Shown piece by piece: positions 27,930 through 40,242 of a stretch of 44,160 bases of DNA; positions within the stretch are counted from its first letter, which is position 1; each line of letters opens with the position of its first letter. Location: assembly GCA_028291405.1 (NCBI GenBank), contig JAQGID010000321.1, positions 1 through 44,160 on the forward strand, read 5' to 3'. The position numbers and the translations under genes are program-made. The stretch comes from Rhodospirillales bacterium. Its GTDB lineage: Bacteria > Pseudomonadota > Alphaproteobacteria > ATCC43930 > CGMCC-115725. The notes under the pieces are model-generated. The model saw nothing but the letters and a program-made list of their open reading frames with translations. It did no database searches and was not told the DNA's origin.

Positions 27930-28973
27930 CTACTCGGCGGCGACCTTTCCGGTTCCCTGCTGCTCCTCCGCGATCAGGCGCTCGACGATGCGGCGGGCGG
28001 CGATGCCGCCGGCGTCCTGCTGGAGGTCGATCGTCGGACGCGGCGCGAGGTTGATGTTGCGCTGCTGCTCGCGGACGATCGCAAGATCCTCGCCGAAGGC
28101 CTTGGTGACCTGGCTGCGCACGAGATCCGACATCCAGCGCTGGTCGATTTTGAAATTGTAGACCTGCGCCCAGAAGTAATGCGTCGAGCCCTGCGTCTCA
28201 GGCGTCAGGGCGTTCAGGTTCATCATGCTGACGCCCTTGCTGCGATCGCCCTGCCGGGCGCCGCTGCCGGCGAGGGCGGAGCCGACGTCGAGCTTGACGA
28301 AACAGGGCGGCGCGAAGGTGGCGAGCTGCCAGCGGTCGACGTTGGCGCCGTCGGGGAAGCCGCCCATCCGCTTGTGGAACGGCGCCGGCGGCCGGTCCAT
28401 CAGCCAGCGGTCGACATTGACTCGCCGCTCCTCGCGCCGGGTCGTGACCTCGGAGCTCGCGAAATCGTCGGTGCCGAGCGTCGTCGGATGCACGAAGGTC
28501 AGGTGCGTCGTGTCGAGCAGATTGTCGACCAGCAGCAGATAATTGCCCTCGAGGTGCAGCCGGTCACCGCCATAGCCCCATGCCGGATCGTCGATCCAGT
28601 GGAAATCCTCGATCAGATCGGGATCGGCCAGAGCCGGGTCGCCCATCCAGATCCAGATCCAGCGGTTGCGCTCGACCACCGGATAGGCCGTGACGCGGGC
28701 GCCGGCGGGGATGCGGTCCTGGCTGGGGATGTGGACGCAGGCACCCGTCTGGTCGAAGCGCAGCCCGTGGTAAGGGCACTCGACGATGTCGCCGCGCAGC
28801 TTGCCGAGCGACAGCGGCGCCTGACGATGGCAGCAGCGATCCTCGAGCGCGACGGGGGTGCCGTCCTCGCGGCGGAAAAAGACGATGGGCTCGGCGAGGA
28901 TGATACGGCGCAGCATGTCGCGTCCGACCTCGTGATCCCAGGCGCCGACGTACCAGGCGTTGCGGATGAACAT
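27930..28973 (-). CDS. Rieske non-haem iron oxygenase, VanA-like (second in pair)
   Basis: A 347-residue oxygenase alpha subunit. The Rieske 2Fe-2S ligands are Cys47 and His49 (EDRCCHRQAPLSLG) and Cys66 and His69 (CPYHGLRFD); the residue between the first two ligands is Cys rather than the common Pro. The mononuclear iron site is seen in NLLDTTHLTFVHPTT (His157, His162; Asp154 bridges the two centres). The pattern is that of the vanillate O-demethylase/toluenesulfonate methyl-monooxygenase group. GAGGAG precedes ATG 28973. It is transcribed 41 bases after its paralogue, in the same operon. No reductase (VanB-type) is present nearby. Confidence 0.94.
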   Translation of the reverse strand: MFIRNAWYVGAWDHEVGRDMLRRIILAEPIVFFRREDGTPVALEDRCCHRQAPLSLGKLRGDIVECPYHGLRFDQTGACVHIPSQDRIPAGARVTAYPVVERNRWIWIWMGDPALADPDLIEDFHWIDDPAWGYGGDRLHLEGNYLLLVDNLLDTTHLTFVHPTTLGTDDFASSEVTTRREERRVNVDRWLMDRPPAPFHKRMGGFPDGANVDRWQLATFAPPCFVKLDVGSALAGSGARQGDRSKGVSMMNLNALTPETQGSTHYFWAQVYNFKIDQRWMSDLVRSQVTKAFGEDLAIVREQQRNINLAPRPTIDLQQDAGGIAARRIVERLIAEEQQGTGKVAAE

Positions 28974-29014
28974 GACTGACTCCTCGCTTTCAGAGCGTGG
29001 TGACGGCGACGATA

Positions 29015-30055
29015 TCACTCGGCGGCAGCGGCCAGTCGCGCCTGCTCGTCGAGCTTCGTCGCGATGATCCGGCGGGCGGCGGCGCCGCCGCGGTCGCCGC
29101 GGAAATTGACGAGCGGCGCGCCGGAGCGGTCGCGATCCATCGAGTTCTGCTGCGCCTCGAGAATAGCCGCGTCCTCGTCGAAGGCGGTATAGGTGATCTC
29201 GAGAAACTTGCGCGAGAGCTCGAGGTCGTCGGTCTTGATGCAGCGTGTCACGGACCAGAAATAATGGGTCGTCGTCGCGGTCTCCGGCGTCGCGCTGTTG
29301 AGGACGAGGTGCGAGGGCACCTGCAGCGCCTCGGTCGTGCCGGCCGGCTCGGCACCCAGCGTCACCAGGATGTAGATCGGCGCCCGGAACTCGGAAAGCT
29401 GCCAACGGTCGATCTTGCCGTTCAATCCCTTGGTCGCACGATGGATCGGCGCCGGGTCGACGTTGCGAATGATCCGCTGCGTCTTGACGACTTCGTCCTC
29501 GACGAAAACCTCCATCGGCACGTCGTCGACGCCGGGTCCGGCGAGCGTCGTCTTGTGCGTGTAGGTGACGTGGCTGAGGTCGAGCAGATTGTCGACGACG
29601 AGCTGGTAGTTCGCCTTGACGTAATGATAGCCGTGGACAGCCGCCCAGCCCGGGGCTGTGTTCGTGCTCCAGTCGGGGATCAGCGCCGGGTCGGCCCCGG
29701 CCTCACCCATCCACAGGAAGACGAGAGCATGGATCTCGATGACCGGGAAGCTGCGGGCGCCGAAATTGCGCGGAATCGGTAGGTCCTTCTGGCTCGGGAC
29801 CAAGGTGCAGCGGCCGCTGCCGTCGAGCCTGACGCCGTGATAGCCGCACTGAATCTCGTCGCCGACGATCTCGCCCAATGACAGCGGCGCCTTGCGGTGC
29901 GGGCAACGGTCCTCGAGTGCGGCGATGCTGCCATCGCGCCGGCGGAAGAGGACGATGGCCTCGTCGCAGATGATGCGGCGGAACGGAGTCGTGCCGATCT
30001 CCGCAGAGGTCGCCGCGACATACCATTGATTGCGGAGAAATTCGCCGGTCGCCAT
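29015..30055 (-). CDS. Rieske non-haem iron oxygenase, VanA-like (first in pair)
   Basis: A 346-residue oxygenase with Rieske ligands Cys51, His53 (EDRCPHRKAPLSLG), Cys70 and His73 (CGYHGVRLD), and an iron site in NLLDLSHVTYTHKTT (Asp159, His162, His167). It is clearly paralogous to the product of the next gene, with the same layout and a similar C-terminal tail (AARRII). GGGAGG before ATG 30055 is strong. The gene is divergent from a TetR regulator 102 bases away, which probably controls the pair. O-demethylation or ring hydroxylation of a methoxylated or carboxylated aromatic is likely for the family; the real substrate is unknown. Confidence 0.94.
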   Translation of the reverse strand: MATGEFLRNQWYVAATSAEIGTTPFRRIICDEAIVLFRRRDGSIAALEDRCPHRKAPLSLGEIVGDEIQCGYHGVRLDGSGRCTLVPSQKDLPIPRNFGARSFPVIEIHALVFLWMGEAGADPALIPDWSTNTAPGWAAVHGYHYVKANYQLVVDNLLDLSHVTYTHKTTLAGPGVDDVPMEVFVEDEVVKTQRIIRNVDPAPIHRATKGLNGKIDRWQLSEFRAPIYILVTLGAEPAGTTEALQVPSHLVLNSATPETATTTHYFWSVTRCIKTDDLELSRKFLEITYTAFDEDAAILEAQQNSMDRDRSGAPLVNFRGDRGGAAARRIIATKLDEQARLAAAAE

Positions 30056-30101
30056 CTCACCTCCCTGGCCTCCAGGCCGCGTTGATCGCGGATCGTCGTG
30101 T

Positions 30102-30111
30102 TGTCCGGACA
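30102..30111. promoter_or_regulatory. Palindrome TGTCCGGACA, candidate TetR operator
   Basis: A perfect 10-bp palindrome in the middle of the 102-base spacer between the divergent Rieske and TetR genes. The position fits an operator through which the TetR protein could control both promoters. It is short, so chance cannot be excluded. Confidence 0.4.
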
Positions 30112-30156
30112 TCTTATCCGATTGCAATTTTTTAACAGCCCTATTAATTGAGGTCA

Positions 30157-30909
30157 ATGACGCAGAGCGGGTCGCGGATGCAAATGCCGACCGGGCGAGA
30201 CGGCGGCCGCCGTGCTCCAGGACGGCAGAAGGCGGGCACCCGCCCGCTGACGCCGCATGACATTTTCGCCAGCGCTCTCGAGCTGTCGAAGAGGATCCCG
30301 TTGCACGAGATGTCGATCGTGCGACTCGCATCTGCGCTCGGCGTCACGCCCGCCTCGATCCATTATCACCTCGACGGCCGCGACGCCGTGGTCGCGGGGG
30401 TCATCGACCTCTTCATCCGCGACCTTCTCGACCGCTGGCCAAGCCCGACGGGAAACTGGCGGGCCGATCTCGAGGGCGTCGCCGATGCGCTCTACCGGCA
30501 GTATTTGCGCTATCCCGGCGTCACCAGCTATTTCGCCCTGCACAACCGATTTCTGGCGCTGAAGCCGGTCATGGAAGAGGATGACGGCGGCGGTCTGCTG
30601 CTCTTCATGGAGCGCTATTTCGCAGCCGTGCGGGCCGTCGGGCTGGAGGCGCGGCGCTCCGCCACCTATGCCGTTCTGCTGCTGCAGTTCATCCACGTCG
30701 CGGCGCATCGCACCGCGAACCATCAGTGGCCGGGCGAGCAGGCGGCGCTGCACAGCTATTTGACGGGTCTCGATCGCAGCAGCTTTCCCAGCATCGACTT
30801 CATGCGCGAGAGCTATCTGGAACTCGCCGGCGATGCCGCCTTCGAGGCGGGCTTGCGCCTGATCTCCGCCGGGCTGGAGATGGAGCGCCGCAGCGCCCGG
30901 ACGCCCTGA
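30157..30909 (+). CDS. TetR family transcriptional regulator
   Basis: A regulator of about 250 residues. After a basic, disordered N-terminus (GRDGGRRAPGRQKAGTR) the HTH reads MSIVRLASALGVTPASIHYH followed by LDGRDAVVAGVIDL, the TetR pattern LAxxLGVxxxxxYxHxxxKxxL. The rest is the helical ligand-binding domain. The start is uncertain: ATG 30157 (GAGGT just before), 30178 or 30184. It is divergent from the two Rieske oxygenase genes and is the obvious candidate to control them in response to an aromatic or acyl ligand. Confidence 0.88.
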   Translation: MTQSGSRMQMPTGRDGGRRAPGRQKAGTRPLTPHDIFASALELSKRIPLHEMSIVRLASALGVTPASIHYHLDGRDAVVAGVIDLFIRDLLDRWPSPTGNWRADLEGVADALYRQYLRYPGVTSYFALHNRFLALKPVMEEDDGGGLLLFMERYFAAVRAVGLEARRSATYAVLLLQFIHVAAHRTANHQWPGEQAALHSYLTGLDRSSFPSIDFMRESYLELAGDAAFEAGLRLISAGLEMERRSARTP

Positions 30910-34322: not shown

Positions 34323-35342
34323 ATGACATTGCGGAGATCCGTCACTCGCGTCGTCGCTGCGACCGCGATCGGTTGCGCCCTGAGCCTCGGCGGCGCCGTC
34401 CGCGCCGAGCCGGTGAAGATCCGCATGGGCTGGGTCGCGACGCCGGCCTCGCTGGTGCCGATCCTCTTCGCCAAGGAAGGCGTCGCCAGGCACAACGGCA
34501 CGACCTACACGGTCGAACCCTTCTACTTCAAGGGCTCGCCGCTGCAGATCACGGCGCTGCAGAGCGGCGATCTCGATATCGCGGGCCTCGGCTTCTCCTC
34601 GATCGGGCTGGCGGTGCAGAACGCCGGGCTCAGCGACCTGCGGATCATCGCCGACGAGATCCAGAACGGCGTGCCGGGCTATGGCGGCACCGAGTTCGCC
34701 GTCCTCAAGGATTCGCCGATCAAGACGGTCGAGGACCTCAAGGGCAAGGTGCTGGCGACCAACGGCATCGGCGGCGGGCTCGACACGATCGTCAAGGCGA
34801 TGCTGCTGAAACACGGGCTCGTCGACAAGCGCGACTACAGCGTCATCGAGATCGCCTTCCCCAGCATGCGCGCCGTCATGATGGAGCATAAGGCCGATCT
34901 CGTCGATTTCGCGCTGCCGTGGTCGCAAGAGCCCGAGTTCAAGAACAATGCCCGCATCCTCTTCACCACGAACGAGGCGATGGGCAACGTCGCGCTGTCG
35001 TTCTGGGTGGCGCGCACCGGCTTCCTCGAGAAGAACCGCGCCGCGATGGTCGACCTGCTGGAGGACTACATCCGCATCATCCACTGGTACACCGACCCCG
35101 CCAACCACGACGAGGCGGTGACGATCGTCGCCAATTTCCTCAAGCTGAAGCCGGACATGCTGCAGGCCTGGCTCTTTACCAAGCAGGACAACTACCGCGA
35201 CCCGAACGGCATGCCGGACCTCGACGCGATCACGCGCAACGTCCACGTCTCGAAGGAGCTCGGCTTCGTCAAGGCGGACCTCGACGCCAGGCAATACGCA
35301 GATCTCAGCCTCATTCAGGAGGCGGGGCAACGGCTGAAGTAA
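34323..35342 (+). CDS. Orphan ABC substrate-binding protein, NMT1/TauA type
   Basis: A 339-residue periplasmic binding protein with signal peptide (MTLRRSVTRVVAATAIGCAL, cleavage near VRA-EP) and the family start KIRMGWVATPASLVPILFAK. The central pattern DLKGKVLATNGIGGGLDTIV is typical of SsuA/TauA/aromatic-sulfonate binding proteins. GGGAGGAAG precedes ATG 34323. No ABC ATPase or permease gene lies beside it, so it must work with a transporter elsewhere or serve as a receptor ligand carrier. It differs from the NMT1-like protein at 1853 in length and motif details. Confidence 0.93.
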   Translation: MTLRRSVTRVVAATAIGCALSLGGAVRAEPVKIRMGWVATPASLVPILFAKEGVARHNGTTYTVEPFYFKGSPLQITALQSGDLDIAGLGFSSIGLAVQNAGLSDLRIIADEIQNGVPGYGGTEFAVLKDSPIKTVEDLKGKVLATNGIGGGLDTIVKAMLLKHGLVDKRDYSVIEIAFPSMRAVMMEHKADLVDFALPWSQEPEFKNNARILFTTNEAMGNVALSFWVARTGFLEKNRAAMVDLLEDYIRIIHWYTDPANHDEAVTIVANFLKLKPDMLQAWLFTKQDNYRDPNGMPDLDAITRNVHVSKELGFVKADLDARQYADLSLIQEAGQRLK

Positions 35343-35502
35343 CCGGGGTCCGCTCGCGACTTCCGCCCGTGTGATCTAGCGATGGGGCTATCGGTCGCTG
35401 TCGCTTCGAATGCGGGCTTGCGACGCTGGACGTCACCGGTGTGTTCTGATTGACTTCCGCGACGCACGGCGTAAACGCCGGCAGACGCGGGAGGAGACAT
35501 CG

Positions 35503-36720
35503 ATGACGGGTCGGATGACACGCCCTGCCCTGCTGATGCTCGCGGCGCTGGCCATGCTCGGCGCCGCGCCGGCCTTCGCCGGCGGCACCTATGGCCCCGG
35601 CGTCAGCGACACAGAAATCAAGCTCGGCCAGACGATGCCGTACAGCGGTTTCGCCTCGTCGGTCAGCTCGATCGGCAAGGGCGAGCTCGCCTATTTCGCC
35701 AAGGTCAATGCCGAGGGCGGGGTCAACGGTCGCAAGATCACGTTGATCAGCCTCGACGACGGCTACAGCCCGCCGAGGACGGTCGAGCAGACGCGGCGGC
35801 TGGTCGAGCAGGACAACGTGCTCTTCATCTTCGGCTCGCTCGGCACCGCGCCGAACGCAGCGATCCGCAAGTATCTTAACGGCCGCAAGGTGCCGCAGCT
35901 CTTCATCAACAGCGGCGCCACCGAGATGGCCAATCCCGAGCTCTATCCCTGGACGATGAAATGGATGCCGAGCCTGCGCCTCGAAGGACGGATCTATGCA
36001 CAGTATATCCTGCAGGATAAGCCCGATGCGAAAATCGGCGTGCTGTACCAGAACGACGATTTCGGCCGCGACTATCTCAGCGGCTTCATCGACGGGCTGG
36101 GCCCGGACGGCGAAACGCGCATCCTCGGCAAGGAGGCCTACGAGACGACCGACCCGACGATCACCTCGCAGCTCATCAAGCTGCGCGGCCGCGGCGTCGA
36201 CACGCTGTTCCTCATCACCCAGGGCAAGTTCTCGGTGCAGGGAATCCGCGCCGGGCGCGAGCAATTCGGACCGGACGCCACGCTGATCGTGCCGACAGTC
36301 GCGACCTCGATGGTCGGCATCCTGCAGCCGGCCGGCCTCGACAACGCCAAGGGCGTCATCTCGGCGTCGCTGACCAAGAACCCGGCGGACAAGAGCTGGG
36401 CCAACGATCCGGGATATCTCGGCTATCTCGCTTTCATGAAGCAGTACCTGCCGGACGCCGACCCCGCCGATGCCGGTTATTCGACCGGCTATACCGAGGC
36501 GCAGGCAATCATCGAAGTCATCAAGCAATGCGGCGACGAGTTGACCCGCGAGAACGTCATGAAGCAGGCGACGAGCATCAGGGGCATGTCGCTGCCGATG
36601 CTGATCCCCGGCATTACCGTGACGACAGGTCCAGCCGATTACAATCCGATCAAGCAGATGCGGCTCCAGCGTTTCGACGGCGAGCAATGGGTGTTGTTCG
36701 GCGAGCCGACCGGCGGCTGA
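35503..36720 (+). CDS. Orphan ABC substrate-binding protein, branched-chain amino acid (Peripla_BP_6) type
   Basis: A 405-residue periplasmic protein with signal peptide (MTRPALLMLAALAMLGAAPA, cleavage near AFA-GG). The mature start GVSDTEIKLGQTMPYSG and the segments NGRKITLISLDDGYSPPRTV and KIGVLYQNDDFGRDYL mark the type-1 LivJ-like fold. Family members bind amino acids, amides or aromatic acids such as benzoate derivatives. GGGAGGAG precedes ATG 35503. As with its neighbour, no ABC membrane genes are nearby. Its stop is one base from the stop of the convergent cupin gene. Confidence 0.94.
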   Translation: MTGRMTRPALLMLAALAMLGAAPAFAGGTYGPGVSDTEIKLGQTMPYSGFASSVSSIGKGELAYFAKVNAEGGVNGRKITLISLDDGYSPPRTVEQTRRLVEQDNVLFIFGSLGTAPNAAIRKYLNGRKVPQLFINSGATEMANPELYPWTMKWMPSLRLEGRIYAQYILQDKPDAKIGVLYQNDDFGRDYLSGFIDGLGPDGETRILGKEAYETTDPTITSQLIKLRGRGVDTLFLITQGKFSVQGIRAGREQFGPDATLIVPTVATSMVGILQPAGLDNAKGVISASLTKNPADKSWANDPGYLGYLAFMKQYLPDADPADAGYSTGYTEAQAIIEVIKQCGDELTRENVMKQATSIRGMSLPMLIPGITVTTGPADYNPIKQMRLQRFDGEQWVLFGEPTGG

Positions 36721-36721
36721 G

Positions 36722-37255
36722 CTACGCCGCCAGCTCGGCCCAGCGATAGGGCGCCAGGTCGATCGCCGGATGCACCGCGCCGCAGACGGTGCAGCTGCGG
36801 CGGGCTGCATCGGCGTTGAAGACGCGGCAGGCGCGGAGATAACCCGCCTGCGCCGTCTCGGCGGACAGCTCCCAGGTGTCGCGGCAGAGCGCTGCGCCGC
36901 AGCTCTCGCAATACCAGGCCACGGCCTCGAGCTCTGATTCGGGGAGCTTGTAGCGATACTGGATCGACTCCGTCGCCGGCACGATGCGGTGCGGCGTCCC
37001 GGCCGGGACGTAGAGGAAGTCGCCGGGAACGTAGCTGTGCCACAGCACCGGCGCGTCCTTGAACTGGACGCGGCCCTCGCCCGACATGACCACGATGACG
37101 CTGTCGTACTGGCAGACCAGGAAGAACGGCTGCGGCCGGTCGTTGCGGCTGAGGTGGATCTGCAGATCGATCGACTCCGGCAGCATCGGCCGCTCGTCGT
37201 AGGGGCCCGCCGTCGCCGCCGCGGCGAAGGTCGAGAACATGATGTCCCGTGCCAT
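36722..37255 (-). CDS. 3-hydroxyanthranilate 3,4-dioxygenase-like cupin, metal site degenerate
   Basis: A 177-residue protein with the cupin plus zinc-ribbon plan of bacterial 3-hydroxyanthranilate dioxygenase. The second cupin motif GDFLYVPAGTPHRIVP (His89) is present, and the C-terminal ribbon has Cys116/Cys119 (YCESCG) and Cys155/Cys158 (CTVCG). The first cupin motif, where the enzyme has a His and a Glu (H-x5-E), reads LVCQYDSVIVVMSGEG and lacks both. It begins three bases after the stop of the following relative, in an operon with it. It may be a partner subunit instead of a full enzyme; that is inference. Confidence 0.75.
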   Translation of the reverse strand: MARDIMFSTFAAAATAGPYDERPMLPESIDLQIHLSRNDRPQPFFLVCQYDSVIVVMSGEGRVQFKDAPVLWHSYVPGDFLYVPAGTPHRIVPATESIQYRYKLPESELEAVAWYCESCGAALCRDTWELSAETAQAGYLRACRVFNADAARRSCTVCGAVHPAIDLAPYRWAELAA

Positions 37256-37258
37256 GGC

Positions 37259-37966
37259 CTAGGCCTCCCGACCGCGCGCCGCGGCGGCGGTCGCCGCGGT
37301 CAGCGAATCGTGGCCGATCTTGGCGATCGCGCTCTGGTCGATATGCGTGTTCCAGGCCCAGGATTCGATCGGGAACGGCGGGTTGTCGTGGCCGCAATGC
37401 TTGCAATGCCGCGCCTCGGGATCGGCGTTGAAGCGCCGCGCCGCCTCGTAGGTTTCCGCGATGGTGATAAAGGGCGCGTAATCGCCGAGCGTCTCACGCT
37501 GCTTGCCGCGCTGCGGCGGCGTCGCATCGACCTCGTAGACGAAGAGCCGGCGATCGCATTTGTCGCAGACGAAGCGGTATTCCTCGCGATGCGGCTTGCC
37601 GATCAGCTGGCGCTGCGTAATGGCGACGACACGCACCGATTCTTCGCGCTCGGGATCCTCGAAGGGTGCCGTCACCATGTGCAGCTTGGGGCCGACGCGG
37701 ACGAGGCCGGAGGCCTGGCGCAGCGCGCCCTCGGCGCCGAAGACGAGCAGCACCTCGTCGACCGTGTTGAAATGCTGGAAGCGCCCGAAGCGCCGTCCCG
37801 GCGCGCCCCGGAAAGTCGCGGCGCAAGGCACGATGGCGCCCTCATCGACATACGGGAAGAGCGGCGCCAGCGCCGACTGCGAGTTCTGCACGAAGGCGAA
37901 GATGTTGGTCTTGAGGGGCTCGCGGTCGCCGCTCGGCGGCGGGATCTGTCGTGTCGTCGTGCTCAT
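37259..37966 (-). CDS. 3-hydroxyanthranilate 3,4-dioxygenase-like cupin, metal site conserved
   Basis: A 235-residue protein with the same cupin plus zinc-ribbon plan. The first motif RFQHFNTVDEVLLVFGAEG has His65 and Glu71 at the spacing of the dioxygenase iron ligands, and the second has His96 in VGPKLHMVTAPFEDP. The ribbon cysteines are 134/137 (CDKC) and 188/191 (CKHC). GAGGAGGGG lies before ATG 37966. It probably binds Fe(II) and cleaves an aromatic ring with adjacent hydroxyl and amino or hydroxyl groups, but it is well diverged from classical NbaC. It sits in an operon after an MFS transporter and a TAXI-like protein. Confidence 0.72.
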   Translation of the reverse strand: MSTTTRQIPPPSGDREPLKTNIFAFVQNSQSALAPLFPYVDEGAIVPCAATFRGAPGRRFGRFQHFNTVDEVLLVFGAEGALRQASGLVRVGPKLHMVTAPFEDPEREESVRVVAITQRQLIGKPHREEYRFVCDKCDRRLFVYEVDATPPQRGKQRETLGDYAPFITIAETYEAARRFNADPEARHCKHCGHDNPPFPIESWAWNTHIDQSAIAKIGHDSLTAATAAAARGREA

Positions 37967-37999
37967 GGCGTCCCCTCCTCGAATCGTCTGGCGGTCAGG

Positions 38000-38977
38000 T
38001 CACAGCAACTTTGCCTCGCGGTAGTAGCGTTCCGCACCGGGGTGCAGCGGGATCGCCGTCCGCGCGATCTTCTCCGGCGCCAGCGGATAGGTCACCGGGC
38101 TGCGCGCCGGCGGGATGTGGCGATAGGCCTGATCGATCACCTGACGCCGCTCGCACAGGCACCAGGCGATGAGATAGGCGACGTCGTCCGGCAGATCGGC
38201 GCGCGCGATCATCAGGAAATCCGAGAAATCGAGCGTCGCGAAGGGCCCGTCCATGCCGCGCAGATAGCCTTCCGGCAGGCTGGCGCGCGGCCAGTCCTCG
38301 TCGCGCTCCATCGCCGCGAGGGTTTCCTCCTCGAGCGGCAGGAAGCAGAGATCGGTGGCGTCCGCGAGATCCTGCCACCACTGCGTCATGATCGCCTCGT
38401 GGATGATCGCATCGGCCGCGCCGTCGGCGACGAGGGCGATGCATTCGTTCGGCCGCACCCGCTCGACATAGGTCCCGCCCCAGGCTTCGATCGTCGCGCG
38501 CGGCAGGCCGGCGGATTCCATGACGCGCTGCGCCGCATAGCCGACCGTGTTGATGCCGTCGTCCTGCGAGGTCGCGATCCGCAGCGCCGGGGCCTTGCGG
38601 CGAAGATCGTCGAAGCTGCGGATGCCGAGGCTCTCCCTGACGGCGACGACCAGCCGATCGGTCTGCGGCATCGTTCCGAGGGCGCGCAGCTCGGGGAAGG
38701 CCTCGCCCGCGGCGATGCCCTTGCCGGTCAGCGTCATCGGGACGAAGGCGGTCGGCACCGCCAGCGCGACGTCGACCTGGCCGCGTCCGACGGCGCTCAC
38801 CGAATCGAAGCCGCCGTGGCCGCTCCAGATGCCGACGCGCGAATAGGGCCCGGCGCGGCTGGTGACCTCTTGCGAGAGGAAGCCGAAGATACGGTGCAGA
38901 TTGGCCTGGCCCCAGTCGCCCTGAAACTGCAGCGTCAGCGAGCGCGCGATGCGCGGCTCCGGCACCGTGTAGCTCAT
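38000..38977 (-). CDS. TAXI/TRAP-like substrate-binding-fold protein without signal peptide
   Basis: A 325-residue protein with the TAXI-type binding-protein pattern: LTLQFQGDWGQANLHRIFGF, AVGRGQVDVALAVPTAFVPM, RALGTMPQTDRLVVAVRESL, then SFDDLRRKAPALRIATSQDD. It starts MSYTVPEPRIARS, with no signal peptide or membrane anchor, and no start further up because its ATG overlaps the MFS stop (ATGA). Hence it should be cytoplasmic. No TRAP membrane genes are nearby. Signal-less proteins of a binding fold can be enzymes (for example 4,5-dihydroxyphthalate decarboxylase), so a catalytic role in the operon is possible. Confidence 0.8.
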   Translation of the reverse strand: MSYTVPEPRIARSLTLQFQGDWGQANLHRIFGFLSQEVTSRAGPYSRVGIWSGHGGFDSVSAVGRGQVDVALAVPTAFVPMTLTGKGIAAGEAFPELRALGTMPQTDRLVVAVRESLGIRSFDDLRRKAPALRIATSQDDGINTVGYAAQRVMESAGLPRATIEAWGGTYVERVRPNECIALVADGAADAIIHEAIMTQWWQDLADATDLCFLPLEEETLAAMERDEDWPRASLPEGYLRGMDGPFATLDFSDFLMIARADLPDDVAYLIAWCLCERRQVIDQAYRHIPPARSPVTYPLAPEKIARTAIPLHPGAERYYREAKLL

Positions 38978-40242
38978 CGTCCCGGTTCCGGCGCCGGCAC
39001 CGCGACGAGCGTCGTTCCCTCCGCCGCGCCTGCGACATAGACATAAGGGCCGAGCCGCGCGACGAGGATGACCGAGATCGCCAGGGCGACGTCGAAGGCG
39101 ATGAGCATCGGCGCATAGGAATGCGCGCGGTCATAAACCGTTCCCATGAGTGCCGGCCCGACGCCGCTGGCGATCGCGACGAGAGCGAACATGTAGCTGT
39201 AGATCTCGCCGAAGGCCCGCAAGCCGAAGTAGCGGCTGACGAAGAATCCCATGAGGTCGATCTCGGCGCCGACGCCGAGGCCGCAGAGCACGGCGCCGAT
39301 GAACGGAGCAGCGCCGCCGGCGCCGCTCACGAGCAGAAGGATCCCGACCAGCGGCAGGGTGAAGAACAGGGCCGCCGTATAGGGTCCGTTGAAGCGGTCC
39401 ATGCAGTAGCCGGCGAGGACGCGGCCGACGATGATCGCGATGCCGGCCGCCGCCAGGGTCGCCGTCGCCTGCTCGGCCGGAACGCCGCGGTCGGTGAGCA
39501 GCGCGACGATATGTGCGAGCGTGCCATTGACGGCACCAGCGGTCAGCAGGAACGCGAAAGTCAGTGACCAGAAGCTGCGCGTTTCCAGCGCCGCCTCCTT
39601 GACGGTGAGGCCGGGCAGCAGCCGGTTCAAAGTGAGATTCCGGCTGCGGTCGGCCTTGAGCGGCTCCTTGACGAAAATCGCGACCGCCGGGACGGAGAGG
39701 ACGAAGATGAAGATCGCGAGAGCGACCCAGGCCATGCGCCAGCCGAAGGCATCGATGAACCGCCCCGAGAGCGGCGGCACGATCGCCGTGCCGAGCCCGA
39801 CGCCCGCCATCGCAATCCCGAGCGCGAGGCCGCGCTGCTGGTCGAACCACGACGCCACGGCCTTCGAATAGCCCATCGGCGTCGTCGTCGCCGCGAGCAG
39901 GCCGAAGATCGCATAGAGGCCGAAGAGAACGAGCGGCGAGGTATTCACGAGCGACATCGCCGCCGTCGCCAGGGAGAACAGGACGGCGCCGGGTAGCAGC
40001 ACCGGCCGGACGCCCCACCGATCGATCAGCCGCCCGACCACCGGCAGCATGACGGCCGTGCTGGTGGTCGCCAGCGCCAGCGCGCCGCCGAGCGCGCCAC
40101 GGCTCCAGCCGAGCTCGGCGGAGATCGGCTTGAGAAAGACCGCGAAGGTGAAGATGATGACGGCGCCGCCGTTCACGATCAGGGCGACGAGACAGGCGAC
40201 GACTACCCACCAGCGGTTGCGCAACGGGTCCGATGAGCGCAT
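38974..40242 (-). CDS. MFS transporter (oxalate/monocarboxylate-like)
   Basis: A 422-residue major facilitator with 12 hydrophobic segments. The loop 2-3 motif appears as GRLIDRWGVRPVLLPGAVLF, helix 5-6 has GIAMAGVGLGTAIVPPLSG, and a long hydrophilic central loop (EPLKADRSRNLTLNRLLPGL) separates the halves. This is the pattern of OxlT/MCT-type carriers, which often move monocarboxylates or aromatic acids. GGGAGGATCGG lies before ATG 40242. First gene of a reverse-strand operon with the TAXI-like protein and the two cupins; it may import their substrate. Divergent from the gene at 40393. Confidence 0.93.
   Translation of the reverse strand: MRSSDPLRNRWWVVVACLVALIVNGGAVIIFTFAVFLKPISAELGWSRGALGGALALATTSTAVMLPVVGRLIDRWGVRPVLLPGAVLFSLATAAMSLVNTSPLVLFGLYAIFGLLAATTTPMGYSKAVASWFDQQRGLALGIAMAGVGLGTAIVPPLSGRFIDAFGWRMAWVALAIFIFVLSVPAVAIFVKEPLKADRSRNLTLNRLLPGLTVKEAALETRSFWSLTFAFLLTAGAVNGTLAHIVALLTDRGVPAEQATATLAAAGIAIIVGRVLAGYCMDRFNGPYTAALFFTLPLVGILLLVSGAGGAAPFIGAVLCGLGVGAEIDLMGFFVSRYFGLRAFGEIYSYMFALVAIASGVGPALMGTVYDRAHSYAPMLIAFDVALAISVILVARLGPYVYVAGAAEGTTLVAVPAPEPGR

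Follow-up and report, generated by a model that had tools for sequence, protein, structure and literature searches.

In the 44,160-nucleotide stretch of DNA analyzed here (Rhodospirillales bacterium, assembly GCA_028291405.1, contig JAQGID010000321.1; hereafter the window), a minus-strand operon encodes an MFS transporter, a TAXI-fold protein, and two cupins that we call CupA and CupB (Table 1). All four open reading frames (ORFs) described in an earlier sequence-only reading are present, and the translational coupling it proposed was borne out at the 4-base overlap of the MFS stop and the TAXI start (ATGA) and at the 3-base gap between cupA and cupB; the gap between the TAXI gene and cupA is 33 bases (37967-37999) and not 22 as it had stated. 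GGAGG-like ribosome sites lie upstream from the MFS gene, cupA, and cupB. We favor, at slightly better than an even chance, the reading that CupAB is a reductant-dependent multicomponent cupin oxygenase that acts on an aromatic compound before ring cleavage, together with an importer and a TAXI-fold partner. The gene order, co-occurrence, gene fusions, and residue conservation described below were observed directly.

Table 1. Coordinates of the operon and of other features of the window (aa, amino acids)
Feature	Position	Strand	Remarks
MFS importer candidate	38974..40242	-	422 aa; MFS_1 2.2e-40 (Pfam)
Signal-less TAXI/PBP2-fold protein	38000..38977	-	325 aa; clade motif GDWGxANxHR
CupA, predicted catalytic cupin subunit	37259..37966	-	235 aa; invariant residues in relatives
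CupB, HAO-like cupin whose metal site is degenerate; subunit predicted to be structural or to relay electrons	36722..37255	-	177 aa
Convergent periplasmic binding protein (Peripla_BP_6)	35410..36720	+	possible uptake partner, membership putative
SsuA/NMT1-type binding protein, hydrophobic N terminus	34323..35342	+	possible uptake partner, membership putative
Two VanA-type Rieske oxygenases	ORFs 27930-29405 and 29015-30331	-	aromatic context, outside operon

The cupin pair and its relatives

The pair of CupA and CupB is rare and lacks annotation; it is related to 3-hydroxyanthranilate dioxygenase (HAO, or NbaC; models NF009763 and TIGR03037) but is not HAO itself. CupA matches no Pfam or NCBIfam family, and CupB scores far below the cut-offs of two HAO models (34.5 of 220 bits and 28.9 of 145.95 bits). 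In profile comparisons, the C-terminal part of CupA matched CupB (97.6%) and HAO (94.2%), and CupB matched HAO (97.9%); the likeness to HAO lies mainly in the C-terminal half and extends to an HxxxxxE motif in CupA and a C-terminal CxxC...CxxC metal site. Residues invariant in all 13 rows of the CupA alignment are His65, Asn67, Glu71, His96, Gln118-Arg119-Gln120, and the cysteines of two CxxC motifs (Cys134 and Cys137; Cys188 and Cys191). In every one of the 13 rows, His65 and Glu71 fall on His50 and Glu56, two metal ligands of HAO, while His96, which the automatic alignment did not pair with HAO His94, was paired with it by inspection; together, the three residues mark a probable iron site in which His96 would be the third ligand. 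Arg47, Arg99, and Glu110 of HAO (Arg46, Arg98, and Glu109 in L042 numbering), which we take to be its substrate residues, are not conserved: in CupA, Gln replaces Glu110 throughout (13/13), Arg47 is matched by an Arg in 2 of the 13 rows, and Arg99, which falls in a loop that aligns poorly, in 3. On the missed cut-offs and these residues, we reject a close HAO orthologue of the kynurenine or anthranilate pathway. One finding that would have refuted the sequence-only reading, close orthology of the cupins to enzymes of a known pathway, was thus not borne out on the HAO cut-offs.

CupB keeps one of the three HAO metal ligands, the third histidine (His89). The genes cupA and cupB are adjacent in all nine loci that have them as separate genes, and in five others (L019, L035, L036, L040, and L041) CupB and CupA are fused in one frame, so the two probably form one enzyme. 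Rather than two HAO-type enzymes, as they had first been described, they have the appearance of one enzyme with a catalytic subunit and a degenerate one, an arrangement in which CupAB differs from HAO and resembles the two-subunit cupin hydroquinone dioxygenases HapCD and PnpCD; the latter have, to our knowledge, no CxxC sites or redox partners. A rubredoxin-like four-cysteine site is present in CupA in 13/13 rows and in CupB in 9/13. Among the PDB profile matches listed for CupA (24) and CupB (16), none was named as a known two-subunit hydroquinone dioxygenase.

Relatives of CupA proved scarce. They were found in 2 of 61 relatives (self included) and 2 of 43 genomes of the order, whereas the class sample (1/385) and the phylum sample (1/398) returned self only; the sole matches in the phylum of an Eremiobacterota metagenome-assembled genome (1/149) and in the order of Pseudomaricurvus (1/194) were already known. 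Another alphaproteobacterial family yielded five in 298 genomes, all in one genus (5/51), and 72,556 plasmid records yielded eight; three further searches of plasmids, with different CupA or fused proteins as queries, returned the same 8 cupin-bearing records. The sampled genome sets overlap, and in the large samples only part of the first-look candidates per genome was scored (e.g., 7/26), so that CupA misses are possible. Of five loci from a pattern scan of genome contigs, three were real; L005 and L006, with 13-residue matches, were dropped, and a search of their genomes found no CupA. Viral contigs, searched with a single pattern, gave no CupA relative. We found no published description of a system joining a cupin with an electron carrier, a TAXI protein, or an HAO-like protein, a weak negative that covers open-access PMC with all terms required jointly; nor was such a system seen in passages of PMC12746152.

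We counted 14 cupAB loci whose surroundings could be read: the window, L002 (its nearest relative; the same place as L007, L010, and L022), L018 (Eremiobacterota; covering L003), L019, L021 (the second locus of genome G008), L023 with L065 (Pseudomaricurvus; covering L004), L024 (Sphingobium plasmid pANTQ-1), L025 (Phaeobacter plasmid pGal_C110, one of 7 similar records), L035, L036, L037, L038, L040, and L041. L020 (also Eremiobacterota) and L039 are cut by contig ends and were excluded. L037 and L038 are close kin, as are L035, L036, and L040 (in a tree without L041); by our own grouping, this kinship leaves about nine lineages, seven of which have a redox partner. Conservation of gene order had been proposed as a check, and its absence from every relative as a refutation. 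L002 and L018 share the three-gene core TAXI-cupA-cupB, so that this refutation fails for the core and the arrangement is no accident; the exact four-gene order with a window-type MFS gene was found in no relative. At the end of its contig, L018 also has another, divergent relative of cupB (L018:19261-19851), which faces the flavodoxin gene and whose own partner is cut off.

Electron-transfer genes at the cupAB loci

Four kinds of redox partner were searched for (Rieske ferredoxin, MioC-like flavodoxin, HcaD-like ferredoxin reductase, and PDR/VanB reductase), and others may therefore be missed. The stretches covered about 9 to 10 kb per side for most loci, more for L024 and L025, and less on one side of the window (6.2 kb) and of L018 (1.1 kb) and on both sides of L036 (1.7 and 3.1 kb); the window's two VanA-type Rieske oxygenases were excluded from the count. 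An electron-transfer gene lies within 12 kb at 11 of the 14 loci, and in 9 of those 11 the carrier adjoins cupAB, is fused to it, or is one gene away. In L018, a flavodoxin match starts 3 bases past the cupB stop; on pANTQ-1, a PDR/VanB reductase gene follows cupB after 4 bases; and in L037 and L038, a divergent ferredoxin reductase gene 59 bases from cupA is followed by a flavodoxin gene. On pGal_C110, a reductase and a flavodoxin lie 0.6 kb and 0.9 kb away, with one gene between in each case. A Rieske ferredoxin gene stands directly beside the CupB-CupA fusion in L035, L040, and L041, and in L036 the Rieske domain (PF00355, 1.6e-15, residues 469-555) is the C-terminal part of a CupB-CupA-Rieske fusion of 570 residues; two annotated matches of this domain are named "non-heme iron oxygenase ferredoxin subunit." Farther off are the reductase and flavodoxin genes of Pseudomaricurvus (8 to 11 kb away, the flavodoxin gene adjoined by a TAXI gene) and the Rieske ferredoxin gene of L019; the latter is on the opposite strand at a distance of 4.6 kb and is clustered with genes for two Rieske oxygenases. 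The three reductases that were tested scored best against HcaD and AndAa, both reductases of Rieske dioxygenases, and below their equivalog cut-offs.

Strong flavodoxins (E<1e-20) were counted in seven genomes: there is one in each of four, three in a fifth, and none in two, and in four of the five genomes that have them a strong flavodoxin lies within 12 kb of cupA. The probability of this under uniform placement is roughly 3e-8, a figure that speaks for the favored reading with the caveats that the distance was set post hoc, that two of the genomes are kindred, and that no random genes served as a control. In the window's genome, contig C359 (L064:8563-14298) carries a MioC-like flavodoxin gene flanked by a regulator gene of the benzoate-catabolism type and a benzoate-CoA ligase/BoxC cluster; the flavodoxin shares 44% identity with that from one of the cupAB loci.

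The recurrence of electron carriers at 11 of the 14 loci, though not in the window, argues for a reductant-dependent oxygenase over a simple ring-cleaving dioxygenase. The make-up of these loci resembles that of the Rieske multicomponent ring-hydroxylating oxygenases, in which an HcaD/AndAa-type reductase or a Rieske ferredoxin is combined with an oxygenase core in aromatic catabolic clusters; CupAB differs in that its core is a cupin pair and not a Rieske alpha subunit, that the carrier is a flavodoxin in several loci, and that none is adjacent in the window. The sequence-only reading had proposed import followed by HAO-type ring cleavage, which would involve no electron chain and would assign the redox genes to other parts of the pathway. 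The HAO kinship of the cupins, the loci that have no partner, and the Rieske oxygenases of several clusters, which need such carriers themselves, all accord with that proposal; yet several lineages have such partners next to cupAB, in one case as a fusion, and the substrate residues of HAO are not conserved in CupA. We therefore consider HAO-type cleavage quite unlikely, while the rest of the earlier proposal stands, namely, a carrier and a probable oxygen-using enzyme for some, probably aromatic, compound.

It is also conceivable that CupAB is a heteromeric ring-cleaving dioxygenase that uses no reductant in turnover, the carriers serving only to re-reduce Fe(III) iron, as the ferredoxin XylT does for the oxidized iron of catechol 2,3-dioxygenase. 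An accessory role of this kind fits the 3 of 14 loci without redox partners, and the kinship with HAO, itself a ring-cleaving enzyme of the cupin type, agrees with this reading: it is seen in CupB, in the C-terminal half of CupA, and in the HxxxxxE motif of CupA. A reactivase, however, would presumably need less than a complete pair of reductase and carrier or a fused Rieske domain, and some clusters hold candidate ring-cleaving genes of their own (VOC in L065 and L025; homogentisate and intradiol dioxygenases in L025); on balance, we regard such reactivation as unlikely.

Several observations weigh against a reductant-dependent oxygenase. The main weakness is that the operon of the window and its nearest relative have no encoded donor: no searched partner was found in the window, L002, or L021 (3/14; 6 to 10 kb on the shorter sides). 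The only strong flavodoxin of the window's genome is on another contig beside benzoyl-CoA (box) pathway genes, so this type of flavodoxin is not exclusive to cupAB, and no strong flavodoxin was counted in G008, a genome listed as 100% complete. The flavodoxin gene of pGal_C110 is split by an in-frame stop, the Rieske fusion is known from one locus on a 6.5-kb contig, and the two Rieske oxygenases of L019 could be the real clients of its Rieske ferredoxin. The fused forms of CupB have lost most of their cysteines (the four that were aligned lack the four-cysteine site), so the CxxC sites of CupB are not essential. The AlphaFold model of CupA, built from four alignment rows, is poor (mean pLDDT 44), so that the cupin fold of CupA rests on motif and profile similarity, chiefly in the C-terminal half. 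An extradiol-like VOC gene, finally, was found in three loci only, and the best match of the one in L065, HpaD, is far below the cut-off (72.5 of 321.4 bits).

The TAXI-fold protein and its catabolic surroundings

The TAXI-fold protein lacks a signal, as the sequence-only reading had noted: it has no hydrophobic N terminus, and the ORF list contains no earlier in-frame ATG, GTG, or TTG start. Its highest N-terminal Kyte-Doolittle mean is 0.25, compared with 2.01 for a TRAP-associated TAXI protein and 1.83 to 2.18 for three other binding proteins of the window. The family assignment comes from NMT1_3 (7e-20) and TRAP_TAXI (62.7 bits, below the cut-off of 84.35), and the fold is supported by a match to 1us4 (1.3e-10); Foldseek likewise matched TAXI structures to a model of the protein of modest quality (mean pLDDT 58), with the enzyme Thi5 among the lower matches. 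It shares fold and family (1us4 and others) with the TAXI solute-binding proteins of TRAP transporters and differs from them in having no signal peptide, no TRAP permease in its operon, and a clade of its own; the Phaeobacter plasmid encodes a TAXI protein next to a TRAP permease, and the identity between that protein and the window's is 22%. A role as a transporter subunit is unlikely, given the absence of a signal peptide and a permease.

The clade is present at 13 of the 14 cupAB loci, at distances of 2 bases to 12 kb, with one copy broken (L021). The 51 genomes of one genus contain six places with TAXI matches above 430 bits, all of them cupAB loci, the next best match being 197 bits; in the fifth cupA-bearing genome of that genus, G1392, the cupAB locus is cut by a contig end. 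Among the best 20 of 196 plasmid records, the matches of about 49% identity are the seven Phaeobacter records, which also bear cupAB, and the other 13 are at most 31% identical. The clade was not seen in the 32.6 kb examined of pANTQ-1, where a Pht5-like gene for a protein of the periplasmic binding protein (PBP) fold lies upstream from cupA instead. Pht5, a 4,5-dihydroxyphthalate decarboxylase, is likewise a signal-less PBP-fold protein of an aromatic pathway; the pANTQ-1 relative, which belongs to another subfamily, aligns with the window's TAXI protein at an identity of only 19%. With Pht5, MqnA/MqnD, and Thi5, several PBP-fold proteins are known to be enzymes, and by analogy with these an enzymatic role for the TAXI protein is our guess.

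Three observations on related genes may be added. The Pht5-like gene (L024:14725-15717) is 80% identical to an annotated 4,5-dihydroxyphthalate decarboxylase and lies 229 bases upstream from cupA. In L021, the TAXI gene is in pieces with a broken frame (L021:7720-8632), beside an intact cupA-cupB and an HsaA-like monooxygenase gene. A second TAXI-like group, about 36 to 38% identical to the window's protein (L068:5519-6472 and L069:7962-9188), has no cupAB nearby and no clear signal peptide (N-terminal hydrophobicity 1.14 and 0.87, with uncertain starts).

The neighbors of cupAB are typical of aromatic catabolism. In L035, L040, and L041, which belong to another genus, the fused CupB-CupA gene, the Rieske ferredoxin gene, and the TAXI gene are followed by an MFS gene; two such MFS proteins were tested, and their best NCBIfam match is the aromatic acid/H+ symport family, below cut-off. 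This is another family than that of the window's MFS protein, whose best NCBIfam match is the L-lactate transporter SfMCT (159.9 bits, below the cut-off of 320). Other neighbors are VanA-type Rieske oxygenases (window and L019), FAH hydrolases (L020, L025, L040, L041, and L065), extradiol-like VOC proteins (full-length in L065, annotated in L025, and a gapped stretch in L020), annotated homogentisate and intradiol dioxygenases (L025), an HsaA-like flavin monooxygenase below cut-off (L021), amidohydrolase_2 proteins (L018 and L021), and dienelactone hydrolases (L025 and L065). Related MarR-type genes occur at 8 of the 14 loci (L018, L023, L035 to L038, L040, and L041; Pfam MarR in five proteins), and the MarR gene of L021 does not match them. 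The host of pANTQ-1 is an anthraquinone degrader whose pathway genes are drawn at 68.7 to 106.7 kb (PMC9836352); cupAB, at 116 to 118 kb, is outside the pathway genes as drawn there, and the word cupin is absent from that article's main text.

In the window itself, cupB ends 1 base from the stop of the convergent Peripla_BP_6 gene, and the VanA-type oxygenases lie 6 to 9 kb from the operon; the overlap of their ORFs is explained by N-terminal extensions that are probably spurious. A fatty-acid desaturase gene (PF00487, 7.3e-30) is located upstream from the operon on the same strand (window:40849-41889). At window:260-8205, an amidohydrolase, an NMT1-type binding protein, a three-gene xanthine-dehydrogenase-type set (FAD_binding_5, Fer2_2, and MoCoBD), and an FAD-binding oxidase possibly make up a separate heterocycle catabolic cluster.

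Proposed mechanism and implications

From the conserved genes and residues, we infer metal binding, electron flow, the type of reaction, and the class of substrate as follows. The MFS protein would take up the substrate; CupA would bind Fe(II) via His65, Glu71, and His96; and CupB, as a degenerate cupin, would complete the heteromer. Electrons might pass from NAD(P)H to the ferredoxin reductase and from there to the flavodoxin or Rieske ferredoxin, or through a single PDR/VanB-type reductase, and then to CupAB, where the CxxC pairs may form rubredoxin-like iron sites that relay them to the active site. The active site would activate O2 and hydroxylate or otherwise oxidize the ring, which a separate enzyme would then cleave, in some clusters an extradiol-like dioxygenase. 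The TAXI-fold protein could be a cytosolic enzyme, perhaps a lyase like other PBP-fold enzymes, or a product binder. In the window's organism, electrons would need to be supplied in trans.

The reaction does not follow from electron donors and a mononuclear metal site alone, and CupAB with its donors might instead be a reductive enzyme, or else a demethylase or dehydroxylase, with the nearby LLM- and HsaA-type flavin monooxygenases able to hydroxylate the ring. The neighboring genes, however, belong to pathways of aerobic oxygenases, the best-scoring models for the reductases are those of oxygenase reductases, and two annotated matches of the fused Rieske domain are named as ferredoxin subunits of an oxygenase, all of which makes us think this reading improbable in comparison with an O2-inserting ring hydroxylase.

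More tentatively, and at somewhat less than an even chance, CupAB might found a new class of multicomponent aromatic oxygenases, in which a heteromeric HAO-related cupin with rubredoxin-like sites is combined with interchangeable donors (reductase plus flavodoxin, Rieske ferredoxin, PDR reductase, or a fused Rieske domain) and a cytoplasmic TAXI-fold enzyme. As the loci of pANTQ-1, pGal_C110, and Pseudomaricurvus come from named isolates, the idea can be tested. Most reductase-fed oxygenases known to act on aromatic rings are of the Rieske, diiron, P450, and flavin types; if the idea is true, a cupin version would add a class to them and would show a ring-cleaving fold turned into an electron-fed one. 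The four-cysteine site of HAO-like cupins would then have gained a function in this branch, and the TAXI clade would be a case of a binding fold of the transporter type taking on a catabolic role in the cytoplasm.

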